Assembly: GCA_026991225.1 (NCBI GenBank)
Contig: JALXCB010000181.1
Span: 1-34,537, forward strand
Length of the DNA stretch: 34,537 nt
Direction: 5' to 3'
Source: Anaerolineae bacterium
GTDB taxonomy: Bacteria; Chloroflexota; Anaerolineae; J102
A program made the translations under genes and the position numbers. Below are positions 4,288-33,356 of this stretch, piece by piece. Every line of letters starts with the position of its first letter. Position 1 is the stretch's first letter. The notes under the pieces were generated by a model. The model searched no databases. It was not told the DNA's origin and was given only the letters and a program-made list of their open reading frames with translations.

Positions 4288-4364
4288 GTCAACCGTAAAA
4301 CGTCAAACGTCAATCAGTGCTGGCGGGCAGTGATTTTGACGTTTGACGCTTTACGCTGGTTGAC
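4288..4364 (+). repeat. Word-hairpin of CGTCAAACGTCAA type
   Basis: The arms CGTCAAACGTCAA (4301-4313) and TTGACGTTTGACG (4336-4348) are perfect 13-bp complements. They extend outward imperfectly through GTAAA to GTCAACC (4288-4294) and GGTTGAC (4358-4364). The 22-nt loop is unrelated GC-rich sequence. It is the first half of the 426-nt gene-free stretch 4241-4666. There is no run of T after the stem, so it is not a classical intrinsic terminator. Confidence 0.8.
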
Positions 4365-4585
4365 TGACAAATCTTGAGGCTTTCCTTTCCGACCGTATTC
4401 ACCGAGTAAACTCGGGCTCTTTAGGCGCTTCGCGCCTGTGGTCGACCTTCGTCGACCTGATTTCCATCATGAACATGGACGGCGGAGGCCGTCCACTGGC
4501 CGCAGGCCTGGAATGGGACGACTTCAGTCGACAGCATAGGCGACCACAGCAGACCATAACGCGTTTTGTCAGTCAATCAGCGCAT
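4351..4585 (+). repeat. Hairpin-string element R3, copy 1, bounded by inverted repeats
   Basis: The core (about 4395-4555) is a chain of small hairpins: CCGAG-TAAA-CTCGG, GGCGC-TTC-GCGCC, GGTCGA-CCTTCG-TCGACC, GGACGGC-GGAG-GCCGTCC, GGCC-GCA-GGCC and CGAC-TTCA-GTCG. The same chain, inverted, lies at 30040-30178. Here it is enclosed by inverted repeats TTGACTGACAAA (4360-4371) and TTTGTCAGTCAA (4565-4576), which extend with few mismatches to about 4351 and 4585. No open reading frame of note lies inside. Confidence 0.75.
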
Positions 4586-6769: not shown

Positions 6770-6895
6770 AAAAAACTCGAAGCCCACGTTAGGCGAGTCT
6801 TCCACGGGCGTGATGCGTGATGCGTAATCCGTGAGGTCGTTACGCATCACGCATTACGCATTACGTGCTTGGCTTCCTGCGCCGGCCTCGCCGCA
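6770..6895 (+). repeat. Interspersed repeat R1, copy B
   Basis: Same order as the copies at 371-501 and 24300-24440. The stem TGCGTGATGCGTAA (6814-6827) / TTACGCATCACGCA (6840-6853) is a perfect 14-bp match with a 12-nt loop. The tail ACGTGCTTGGCTTCC is shared almost exactly with the 24-kb copy. It lies between the metalloprotease and ATPase genes. Confidence 0.85.
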
Positions 6896-8666: not shown

Positions 8667-10286
8667 ATGAACAAGCAACTTTTAATGGCCATCAACCAGA
8701 TCTGCGCCGAACGCAATCTCAAACCTCAGGTGGTCATCGACGCCATCGAACAGGCGCTGATCAGCGCTTATCGCAAGAATTTCGGGACCGCGCAAAACGT
8801 GGAGGCGCGGCTGGACCCCGAGACCGGGGATACGCACATTTACGCCATCATGGAGGTGGTTTCCCCCGAGGAACTCACCGATCCCAATACCCAGATTACC
8901 CTGGAAGAGGCCCGGGAATACAAGCCAGACGCGGAGATCGGGGATGAAATCCGCATCGAGCGCACCCCCGATGATTTCGGTCGAATCGCCGCGCAAGCCG
9001 CCAAGCAGGTGATCTTGCAACGCATTCGCGAGGCCGAGCGCGACGCCCTTTACGAGGAGTATATCCAGCGCGAGGGTGAGCTGATTCAGGGCGTGGTGCG
9101 CAGCATCGACCGTAAGAACGACGCGCTCATCATCTCCCTGGACGGCGGTCAGGCCGAGGGCATCATGCATCGATCCGACCAGATTCCGGGCGAGCGTTAT
9201 CGGCCGGGTAACAGCGTGCTGGCTTATGTGGTGGAAGTAACTCGCGGCGGTCGCGGGCCCAACATCCATCTCAGCCGCACCCATCGCAACATGCTCCGCC
9301 GTCTGCTGGAGAAAGAAGTGCCCGAGATCAAGCAGGGCACGGTGGAGATCAAGGCCATCGCCCGCGAAGCGGGCAGCCGTTCCAAAGTGGCCGTGGCCGC
9401 CACTCAGCGCGGGGTCGATCCTGTGGGCTCCTGCGTGGGCATGCGCGGCGTCCGCATTCAGAACATCGTCAAAGAGTTGAACAACGAGAAGATCGACATC
9501 GTGGAATGGGATCCCGATCCCGAGAAATTCGTGGCCAACGCGCTCAGTCCGGCCAAAGTCACCGACGTCATCCTCTTCCCGCAGATGGACAAAACCGCGT
9601 TGGTGATCGTGCCCCAGAAACAGCTCTCCCTGGCCATCGGCAAGGAGGGGCAGAACGCTCGTCTCGTGGCCAAACTCACTGGCTGGCGCATCGACATCAA
9701 GAGCGACGAAGAGGCCCTGGCCGAAGGGCTGACGCCCGAGGAGCGGGATCGTCTGCGTCGCGAGCAGAAGGAACAGGCTCGCGAGGCCGACTTGCTGGCC
9801 GCGGCTCGGCGTCTGCTGGAGGAAGATAGCCTGGCCCGGGAAGCCGTGTTGGAGCCGGGCGAGGAGCTGGATATCCCCATCCTGGACCTGGATGAGATCG
9901 CGCCGCCCGCGGAAAAAGCGCCTGCGCCCGAGGTCGCCGAGCCCGAGATGGCCGAGGCGGAAGCCTCCGTTGATGAGGAGGCGGAGCAGATCAAGGCCCT
10001 GGCCGCCAAACTCTCCAACAGCATGGCGGGCGGCGAGGCGGATGAGATCGAGCTCGACGAGGAGCTCTACGCCCGCTTCTTCGAACCCGAGGAAGAGACC
10101 GATATCGAGGAACTGGCCCAAACCACTGGCAAGAAGAAAAAGAAGAAGGGCAAGCGCAAGGACCGCAAGCTCGTCTTCGATGAGGAACTCGGTCGCCTGG
10201 TACAGGTCAAGAAGCGCAAGCGCGGCGGCTCCGAGTTCGGTTATGACGATTTCGAGGACTTTGGCTACGATCTCGACGATTTCTAA
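8667..10286 (+). CDS. nusA: Transcription termination/antitermination factor NusA
   Basis: 539 aa. It binds RNA polymerase and nascent RNA and modulates pausing, intrinsic termination and antitermination. In order: the N-terminal RNAP-binding domain (1-~130), an S1 domain (~137-205), KH1 with GMRG at 258-261 and KH2 with GKEG at 325-328. The C-terminus (~350-539) is not the two-AR2 tail of E. coli. It is a long acidic segment followed by a Lys-rich [12 protein letters not shown] block and an aromatic-acidic end ([16 protein letters not shown]). A GAGAGG SD-like block lies rather far (about 19 nt) from ATG 8667. The gene has its own promoter and leader hairpin. A terminator follows at 10397, so it may be largely monocistronic, unlike the usual rimP-nusA-infB operon. 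Confidence 0.97.
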
Positions 10287-10351
10287 ACTGGAAGCCAAAT
10301 GAAAACCAGGTTTTTTGGCTCAACTTCTATGCGAATATGACGCTGTTTTAA

Positions 10352-10492
10352 AGGGCATACGACCATCTGCAGGTGAACCTGCGGGCTAAGAACGACGCCC
10401 CATGAATGGGGCTTTTTTGCCATGGCCGCAATCAAGCCGGATTTACCCGGTGTCGTTTCGTAGCCCGGCGGCTTCAGCGCCGGGCGGGCGTG
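10352..10492 (+). repeat. Hairpin repeat R2, copy 2
   Basis: Same series as 8287-8425: GCAGG-TGAA-CCTGC, GCCCCAT-GA-ATGGGGC, GCCGG...CCCGG and CCCGGCG-GCTTCA-GCGCCGGG. The sequences joining the hairpins (GGGCTA-GAACGACGCCCC, GT(C/T)GTTT(C/T)GTAGCCCGGCG) are conserved while stem bases change. It follows nusA within the 417-nt gene-free stretch 10287-10703. Confidence 0.8.
10397..10418 (+). terminator. Intrinsic terminator after nusA
   Basis: GCCCCAT (10397-10403) and ATGGGGC (10406-10412), immediately followed by six T (10413-10418). The realistic loop is TGAA. It would separate nusA from ylxR-infB transcription. Confidence 0.75.
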
Positions 10493-10515
10493 GCCTCAAA
10501 AAATACCGAGTTTCA

Positions 10516-10673
10516 AAATGACTGTAACTGCTAACGTAGCCCTGTTTACTCGACACGGATAGGAGGAAACACGGATAAAATCTTTTTGAATGACTTCGTG
10601 TCTTCGTTTCCGTCGTGTCTTCGTGGCAAAAGAGGCCGATTGCGGCCAACGACCTTAGCAGTTACAAATGACT
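10516..10673 (+). mobile_element. MITE-like element: 8-bp duplication and 11-bp terminal inverted repeats
   Basis: AAATGACT occurs at 10516-10523 and again at 10666-10673. Just inside are GTAACTGCTAA (10524-10534) and its exact complement TTAGCAGTTAC (10655-10665). The interior (120 nt) has no coding capacity and is made of ACACGGATA and GTGTCTTCGTG words. This is the layout expected of a non-autonomous transposable element with its target duplication. It ends 30 nt before ylxR. No transposase is present in the window, so mobility is inferred only from the ends. Confidence 0.65.
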
Positions 10674-10703
10674 TCAGTTTAGAGCCTGCTAATTGGTTTC
10701 TTT

Positions 10704-11015
10704 ATGGCCAAGAAAGGACGTCGTAAACACATTCCGCAGCGCACCTGCGTCGTCTGCCGGCGTATCTTTCCCAAACGGGAAGTGAACCGCATCGTACGCA
10801 GCCCTGAAGGCGAGGTGCATTATGATCCCACCGGCAAAGCGCCCGGGCGCGGCGCTTACCTTTGCAATGACATCGCCTGCTGGGAAAAAGCCGTCACCGG
10901 TAATTTCCTGGATCGCGCCCTCAAAACCAAATTGACTCCGGCCCAACGCGCGGCGCTGCAAGAAGAACTGGAACGTCGCAAGGCGCTGCCAGGGCAGACA
11001 TCTCGCAGTGGTTGA
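10704..11015 (+). CDS. ylxR: YlxR family protein (RNase P modulator RnpM)
   Basis: 103 aa. The N-terminus is basic (KKGRRKHIPQRTCVVCRR) with the CVVC pair. The conserved GRGAYLC core follows, then a short helical tail. YlxR proteins sit between nusA and infB in many bacteria; the Firmicutes member was reported to bind the RNase P RNA and renamed RnpM. The position here, after nusA and before infB, agrees. Unusually, a terminator and a MITE-like element lie upstream, so its promoter is unclear, and no good SD precedes ATG 10704. Family assignment is firm; function in this organism is taken from homologues. Confidence 0.92.
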   Translation: MAKKGRRKHIPQRTCVVCRRIFPKREVNRIVRSPEGEVHYDPTGKAPGRGAYLCNDIACWEKAVTGNFLDRALKTKLTPAQRAALQEELERRKALPGQTSRSG

Positions 11016-11087: not shown

Positions 11088-11237
11088 GCCAGAAGCGCGG
11101 GAGGCGCGGCCATGTATTGAGCATGACCCCTGATCCCTAACCTCACCGATCCTCCCTGCCTTGCTGGCTGTTCCCCAAAAGGAATCGGGCTTTATGGCCC
11201 GTTGCCAGAATCAAAAAGGACAGGGAGGATTTTTGTT
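11088..11237 (+). promoter_or_regulatory. Structured infB leader with two mutually exclusive SD-controlling folds
   Basis: Segment S (11149-11168) carries ATCCTCCCTG, then CCTT, then CTGGC. Downstream, CAGGGAGGAT (11221-11230), which contains the infB SD, is its perfect 10-bp complement, and GCCAG (11204-11208) pairs with CTGGC (11164-11168). Inside are two small hairpins, TTCC/GGAA (11171-11184) and CGGGC/GCCCG (11186-11201). Upstream, GCCAG (11088-11092) and GGGAGG (11099-11104) can pair with the same CTGGC and CCTCCC, in nested order. One fold hides the infB SD; the other frees it. The pairings are seen directly; switching is inferred. Confidence 0.6.
11112..11120 (+). other. Two-codon mini-ORF with strong SD in the infB leader
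   Basis: ATG-TAT-TGA is preceded by GGGAGG (11099-11104) at a 7-nt spacing. A second short frame, ATG ACC CCT GAT CCC TAA, starts at 11123. The SD of the mini-ORF is also one of the alternative pairing blocks of the leader. A ribosome initiating here would occupy that block. Confidence 0.4.
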
Positions 11238-23330: not shown

Positions 23331-24124
23331 TCAAGCTGATTGCCGCGGACCTGGATGGAACGCTGGTGGACCGCCAGGGGCATATCGATGAGGTCGAGAT
23401 AGAGGCGTTGCGCCGCGCCCGCGACCTGGGCGTGCAGGTGGTCATCGCCACCGGGCGCATGCCCACCATCATCGATCACTTTCTCGACCGCCTGGATGTG
23501 CGGCCCGAAGACCCGGTGGTGGGCGCACAGGGCGGCGTCATCGCCCGCAGAGATGGCCGCATCCTGCGCGTGCTCACCATCCCTCGCGACGTGGCGGAGC
23601 AGGGCGCGGCCATCGCCCGCGAGTTCGGAGCCGTGCCCGTGTTTTACACTCCCAACGACATCGTGATGGAGCGGGTGGCGTTCTCGCCCGAGCAGGATGT
23701 CTTCTGGTTGGGCAAAGGGCTTCGTTATGATCCGGATGCGCTCTCGCATCTGGATGATGATCTCGTCAAAATCCTGGCGGTGCACACCGACCCCGGAGCG
23801 GTTCCCGAGCTGCTGGCCGCCTTTCGGCAGGCTCTGGGCGACCGGGCCGACGTGGTGCGGTCCCACCACTGGTTTGTGGAGGCGGTGAACAAGGAGGCGA
23901 ACAAGGGCGCGGCCATCGCCTGGATCGCACAGCAAATGGGCGTCGACCGGGAGGAGGTGCTGGCTATTGGGGATGCGGACAATGATGTGAGCATGTTGCG
24001 CTGGGCGGGCGTGGGCGTCGCGCCCGGGGATGCGGCGCCCGAGGCCCGGGCCGCGGCCGATTGGATCGCGCCGCCCCTGGGCCAGCACCCCGTCGCCGCC
24101 GCACTGGCGCGGTTTCTGCTATGA
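23327..24124 (+). CDS. Cof-type HAD phosphatase
   Basis: 265 aa. HAD motif I is AADLDGTLVD with nucleophile D8 and acid D10; motif II is the VIATGRMP region; motif III Lys is in NKGAAIAWIAQ; motif IV is GDADNDVSMLRWAG. The C2-type cap between motifs II and III is typical of the Cof subfamily, which dephosphorylates sugar phosphates, pyridoxal phosphate or similar small molecules. Translational coupling to the LCP pair hints at a role in envelope-sugar or polyprenyl-phosphate metabolism, but the substrate cannot be read. Its last codons and stop are part of a 16-bp sequence duplicated 154 nt downstream. Confidence 0.9.
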   Translation: MIKLIAADLDGTLVDRQGHIDEVEIEALRRARDLGVQVVIATGRMPTIIDHFLDRLDVRPEDPVVGAQGGVIARRDGRILRVLTIPRDVAEQGAAIAREFGAVPVFYTPNDIVMERVAFSPEQDVFWLGKGLRYDPDALSHLDDDLVKILAVHTDPGAVPELLAAFRQALGDRADVVRSHHWFVEAVNKEANKGAAIAWIAQQMGVDREEVLAIGDADNDVSMLRWAGVGVAPGDAAPEARAAADWIAPPLGQHPVAAALARFLL

Positions 24125-24285
24125 AAATAGAGCCACGAAGGCGCGAAGGAAAGCGAAGGCACGAAGAAAAAAGACTGAAGACTAAAGATTATCTGCGGAA
24201 ATCAGCGTTGCATCTGCGTCATCTGCGTTCTCATTTTCATCGGTATCGGCGAGCCGTCGCTCGGGACGCCTGCTATGAAAATAGA
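24116..24285 (+). repeat. Word repeat between two copies of a 16-bp direct repeat
   Basis: CTGCTATGAAAATAGA occurs at 24116-24131 and again at 24270-24285. Between them are CACGAAGGCGCGAAGG-type words (24132-24170) and ATCTGCGTCATCTGCG-type words (24190-24230). The first copy includes the HAD stop codon. It forms the first half of the 357-nt gene-free stretch 24125-24481. Confidence 0.75.
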
Positions 24286-24299
24286 ATGATCGCTGGTTG

Positions 24300-33024: not shown

Positions 33025-33174
33025 GGTAAATTGTCCCGGCTTGGTGATAAGAATGTGGTTGTTCCTGACATGGTCGTAACCAGGGGTATGATAATGGATA
33101 AAAGGGAAAAAGGAAAGTGACTATACAGGTATCCAGCAAAATGCTCTGCACAAAGGCTTGAAGGGACGACGACA

Positions 33175-33262
33175 ATGCAGGTTTGCAAGTTTGCAGATTG
33201 CAAGTGGCAAGTCCTTCCGGCCTGCGAGGTTTTTCACCTGCCACTTGCTACCTGCCACCTGC
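33175..33262 (+). repeat. GCAAGTGGCA word-hairpin
   Basis: TTTGCAAGTTTGCAGATTGC words lead to GCAAGTGGCA (33200-33209), whose exact complement TGCCACTTGC is at 33239-33248, followed by CTACCTGCCACC words. Further CTTCGTGTCGTCGTGG words, like those at 10.6 kb, continue to about 33300. It fills most of the 387-nt gene-free stretch 33025-33411. Confidence 0.8.
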
Positions 33263-33356
33263 CACTTTTACTCTTCGCGCCTTCGTGTCGTCGTGGTTTT
33301 TGCCTTGCTATGAGAGGATGCGTGTATAGTTACAAAGGAAAATGTCCCAAAGAGGC

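Follow-up and report, generated by a model that had tools for sequence, protein, structure and literature searches.

A probable IS66-type MITE nested within an older repeat between nusA and ylxR of an uncultured member of the Anaerolineae

How does a short, non-coding stretch with matching ends come to lie between nusA and ylxR, and what could have moved it there? The question is raised by positions 10516-10673 of the window, by which is meant the entire analysed stretch of 34,537 nucleotides, a contig (C181) from the MAG-like draft genome of an Anaerolineae bacterium (3.87 Mb, 201 contigs, 97% complete). The 158 bp very probably represent a non-autonomous MITE together with its target duplication, nested in an older repeat and moved in trans by an IS66-family (ISBst12-like) transposase.

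Structure and position of the element

The 158-bp total is made up of a 142-bp element proper and two 8-bp duplications. The inverted ends of the element are perfect over 11 bp and agree at 14 of 15 bases when extended, while the interior holds ACACGGATA twice and TCGTGTCTTCGT twice. No ORF of at least 80 aa occurs over 10516-10673 in the ORF list of the window. The original prediction had described a AAATGACT duplication, perfect 11-bp inverted ends, a length of 158 bp and no coding, and this description proved exact to the base. On a simple calculation, chance alone would give an 11-bp inverted match together with an 8-bp direct repeat in such a layout about 4e-5 times per window. The element is thus short, non-coding and bounded by terminal inverted repeats (TIRs), as MITEs are. 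A scan of the nusA-ylxR gap for sigma-70 promoters found none. The features of the locus, and of one related element elsewhere in the window, are as follows.

8667-10286, + strand: putative nusA, a 539-aa ORF and the upstream neighbour (named from the original prediction and gene order)
10283-10682, + strand: host repeat CTAAACTG...CAGTTTAG, TIR-bounded, about 250 bp without the MITE, with GTAG-REP-like hairpins
10516-10523, no strand: left target-site duplication AAATGACT, present as a single copy in uninterrupted host-repeat copies
10524-10665, + strand: MITE (family A) of probable IS66 type, 142 bp, non-coding
10524-10534, + strand: left TIR GTAACTGCTAA, followed by CGTAGCCC
10553-10577, + strand: two ACACGGATA words of the left arm
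10594-10627, - strand: CCACGAAGACACGA module of words, as read on the minus strand, common to other MITE families
10655-10665, - strand: right TIR, TTAGCAGTTAC on the + strand
10666-10673, no strand: right target-site duplication AAATGACT
10704-11015, + strand: ylxR-type ORF of 103 aa, the downstream neighbour; an IF2-like ORF comes next, starting at 11202
33117-33333, + strand: family-B MITE of probable IS66 type; ends GTGACTATACAGGT / GTAACTATACACGC, flanked by the perfect 8-bp duplication AAAGGAAA

Copies, target duplications and empty sites

The element is one of many. BLAST identified 40 homologous, near-full-length copies in its own genome at 88-99% identity, the best two (99%) lying at other loci. 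At no more than one mismatch, there are 287 occurrences of the 11-bp end per strand, versus 42-58 of the reversed pattern, and 69 copies in the genome have both ends exact and 110-140 bp apart, versus none for the reversed-pattern control. Three congeners possess 1, 6 and 5 such both-ends-exact copies (control 0 everywhere), and the remaining 96 genomes searched contain none, the control likewise giving 0. Among 77 copies from fetched loci, a perfect 8-bp target duplication was found in 51, and one with no more than one mismatch in 60; duplications of 4-7 or 9-11 bp were found in none of the 77. Multiple copies with a target-site duplication of fixed length are typical of MITEs, and duplications of 8 bp only are the signature of a transposase that makes an 8-bp staggered cut. 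The genome-wide search for the 11-bp ends that the original prediction had called for also placed them beside the remnant of an IS66 transposase gene, discussed below.

Farther afield, the both-end pattern was absent from IMG/VR, and across 84,980 species genomes it was confined to MAGs of the Anaerolineae, plus three unrelated matches. Those in a Pelosinus and a Neobacillus MAG are the same stretch on opposite strands and lack an 8-bp duplication, 7 of 8 bases being different, as does that in a Woesearchaeota MAG, where 3 of 8 differ. The three are treated here as chance matches, about 0.5 being expected by arithmetic. Two further loci depart from the usual layout: one (L233, G000:C44:30633-31060) carries a MITE within a copy of the same family, forming a 294-bp composite with an outer 8-bp duplication GATTCCGA, and another (L178, positions 413-559 of WGCR01000085.1) has GTAACTGCTAA ends but a AACCTGACAGGTTC-type interior with no CACGAAG words.

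The nusA-ylxR gap is, on comparison of its sequence with other copies, occupied by two nested insertions, the MITE lying inside an older repeat. The left flank of the MITE (10283-10523) belongs to a repeat with 47 matches in the genome, the first bases of which hold the nusA stop codon, and the MITE breaks into this host repeat 9 bp short of its right end. In five further copies of the repeat (L091, L098, L099, L100 and L102), a sequence of the CGAGTTTCAAAATGACTTCAGTTTAG type (e.g., CAAAATGACTTCAGTTTAG) runs through unbroken, with a single AAATGACT. In four congeners (G003, G005, G007 and G008) the nusA-ylxR gap is 9-80 bp long and contains neither MITE nor host repeat, and in a fifth (G006) it is 184 bp long and lacks the MITE, the gap there holding an unrelated word-bearing insertion. 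Empty sites with a single target copy, which the original prediction had proposed to look for, thus exist in the five paralogous repeats, and the gaps of five congeners (9-184 bp) are free of the MITE. Together with the genome-wide recurrence of the ends, they bear out the proposal of a MITE with its target duplication between the two genes. The mobilising family (IS66, ISBst12-like), the nesting inside a second TIR element and the second MITE at 33.1 kb go beyond that prediction. At the level of sequence, these comparisons show that the MITE inserted once, exactly between two copies of AAATGACT, into the right end of the older repeat. The host repeat had entered the nusA-ylxR gap first, the MITE then landed in it, and this MITE copy is now part of the nusA-ylxR linker.

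Other copies occupy sites of the same kind. For example, one MITE copy, on contig C154, has landed in a family-B MITE at GCAGGTTT, a site whose unoccupied version lies in the window at about 33.18 kb, and the rejoined flanks of another copy are identical to window positions 4356-4467 (100% over 112 bases). The intergenic repeats at 4356-4467 and 6774-6884 of the window are both unoccupied versions of sites that hold MITE copies elsewhere. As for the host repeat itself, its copies start and end with TA beside AACTG...CAGTT, which suggests that its own insertion made a TA-type duplication. The insertion in the gap of G006 (L119, G006:C187:10300-11100) is independent and carries another word type, CACCACAGAGACACGGAGG, in inverted arms; the genus has thus seen more than one invasion of the nusA-ylxR gap.

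IS66-type ends and the candidate transposase

What kind of enzyme could have moved the element? Contig C180 of the same genome carries a decayed IS66 transposase gene (L061/L126; PF03050, E=1.4e-33; NF033517 IS66 equivalog, 207 bits against a cut-off of 180), which has a frameshift and has lost its 3' part. No other sizeable IS66 gene turned up in the genome, where the Pfam IS66 DDE domain is otherwise present as fragments. Beside the start of the C180 gene lies GTAACTACTAAGGTAGCCC, which matches the MITE end GTAACTGCTAACGTAGCCC at 17 of 19 bases. Moreover, five intact single-ORF IS66 elements of 1.43-1.63 kb were found in the class, two of them confirmed as IS66 family by NCBIfam, and each has GTAACT ends and a perfect 8-bp duplication. 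Their ends are GTAACTACTAAGCC (twice), GTAACTATACAGGT, GTAACTGTTTAGGT and GTAACTGCTCAC, or, in short form, GTAACTACTAAG, GTAACTATACAGG, GTAACTGTTTAGG or GTAACTGCTCAC. ISDge4 of the ISBst12 group, for which transposition has been seen experimentally, similarly has one ORF, GTAACTGCTCAGCA ends and an 8-bp repeat (PMC12898284). Taken together, the intact elements of the class, ISDge4 and the C180 remnant make a strong case that the ends of the MITE are IS66-type, and a single-ORF IS66-family transposase of the ISBst12 group is the likely mover. Such a DDE transposase would recognise the GTAACTGCTAASGT ends, move the MITE in trans and leave the 8-bp staggered duplication.

The MITE shares with ISBst12-like members of IS66 both termini starting with GTAA and the 8-bp duplication; since it has no ORF, and hence no DDE transposase of its own, it is IS66-like only as a non-autonomous derivative. 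Its match to IS66 is confined to the outermost ~19 bp, so it did not arise from a known element simply by loss of the interior. Neither its own genome nor 298 genomes of the class yielded an intact IS66 element whose ends are exactly GTAACTGCTAA, and the stretches between more distant end pairs, on contigs C15, C38 and C46, hold ordinary host genes and no transposase. The assembly, a draft in 201 contigs at 97% completeness, could lack the partner; alternatively, the end match could be convergent.

A MITE moved by some other transposase family that makes 8-bp duplications, such as IS256, ISAs1 or IS6, is conceivable because the assignment to IS66 rests on the ends and no intact cognate transposase was found. 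The termini of these families differ from the GTAACT type, however. GTAACT ends with 8-bp duplications occur directly on the five intact IS66 elements, as do GTAACT-type ends with an 8-bp duplication on the published ISDge4 (PMC12898284), so that another family is an improbable source. Still less probable is that the stretch only resembles a MITE and in fact serves the nusA operon as a terminator or regulatory RNA, its hairpin being kept for control of ylxR-infB expression. As single-stranded RNA, the 142-bp element is predicted to form one long imperfect hairpin that beats shuffled sequences (-50.1 kcal/mol, z -3.9), and the host repeat contains a hairpin followed by six T (10397-10412) that resembles an intrinsic terminator. 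Inverted ends by themselves yield a stable fold, however, and the same element occupies dozens of unrelated sites with fresh target duplications, is missing from this locus in congeners and has no match in Rfam. 

Finally, the stretch might be a palindromic repeat of the REP/BIME type, spread by a RAYT enzyme and not a DDE transposon, a reading that hardly merits credence. Movement of the RAYT/IS200 type leaves no target duplication, yet 51 of the 77 copies combine inverted ends and an exact 8-bp duplication, which contradicts such a reading. The interior words, being short repeats, would suit a REP, which is a short palindrome with a GTAG or CGTC tag. The GTAG tag is seen only in the hairpins of the neighbouring host repeat, and GTAG-REP hairpins have been described for several phyla, including the Chloroflexi (PMC3733652). 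An IS66-type MITE is the preferred reading over all of these.

Among the closest known systems are ISDge4 and the ISBst12 group: their ends (GTAACTGCTCAGCA versus GTAACTGCTAASG for the MITE) and 8-bp duplications are alike, and the same transposase type occurs in the class, but ISDge4 is autonomous, with a transposase of 449 aa, whereas the 142-bp MITE encodes nothing. The Chunjie MITE of Geobacter uraniireducens, as described in a review, is similar in having conserved ends of its own, duplications and copies numbering in the tens, one of which lies within an operon; it is 178-235 bp long and from a different host phylum (PMC10969869). MITEPsy1 of Pseudomonas syringae is also short and non-coding; its movement has been demonstrated and is credited to an IS whose ends match its own. 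Unlike the present element, it is 100 bp long, makes a 4-nt duplication and has ISPsy2 (listed as IS5?) as its presumed source (PMC3189936). A literature search with partial journal coverage found no description of IS66-derived MITEs, and the element would add IS66 as a source of bacterial MITEs. It also makes the nusA-ylxR-infB gap a clean example of serial insertion, one element nested in another.

Interior words and related MITE families

The original prediction had tied the interior words of the element to transposition, and this link holds. The word CCACGAAGRCNCGAAG occurs 417 times, versus 0 in the control, and 28 of the first 30 CCACGAAG words listed fall in MITEs of IS66 type or their relics: 19 are enclosed by family-A ends that have an 8-bp duplication and 9, by reading of their contexts, lie in degraded or family-B/C copies. 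The other two belong to the repeat type found at 24.1 kb. A literature search on the words themselves returned nothing relevant. Near the ends of intact IS66 elements the word is absent, so the words do not appear to be required as IS66 ends. They would instead be cargo common to several related IS66-type MITE families of the genus, and no part of a transposase gene. An intergenic word type that abounds in this uncultured genus of the Anaerolineae is thereby traced to its source, the MITE family providing most of the short CACGAAG words dispersed in the genome.

Families B and C of the same genome resemble family A in their CCACGAAG modules, 8-bp duplications and GTAAC ends. They differ in having GTAACTATACAGG (B) or GTAACTGCTCAGG (C) ends and copies of 217-226 bp with an extra central segment. 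Family-B ends, which resemble those of an intact IS66 element in another genome (G110), occur 57 times in the genome versus 0 in the control, and 15 of the 21 family-B copies read have a perfect 8-bp duplication. Over ~180 bp, the interior of C shares 86% identity with that of B, and the outer arms, counted with their tips, agree at 81-85% between A152 and C; the tips themselves read GTAACTGCTAAG in A, GTAACTGCTCAGG in C and GTAACTATACAGG in B. Judging from the shared interiors, the simplest reading is that these families may form one MITE lineage whose tips diverged along with its transposases. More tentatively, one might suggest that a single family of word-bearing modules has repeatedly switched ends and has thus been carried by different IS66-type transposases, an idea that at present seems somewhat doubtful. 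If true, the "heptad words" of the genus would not be independent intergenic repeats; together they would make up the body of one MITE lineage as it evolves. How MITEs keep pace with changes in their transposases can be tested on these several families, which have bodies in common but differ in their tips.

The two other sites in the window at which the word type had originally been noted fared differently. That at 33.3 kb lies within a MITE of a related end type, the family-B element listed above, whereas that at 24.1 kb belongs to a different repeat without these ends. The latter (24117-24286) is a word-bearing repeat of another type that has no GTAAC ends; a direct repeat of 16 bp, CTGCTATGAAAATAGA, stands on either side of it, and related copies are found at two other loci (L261 and L271).
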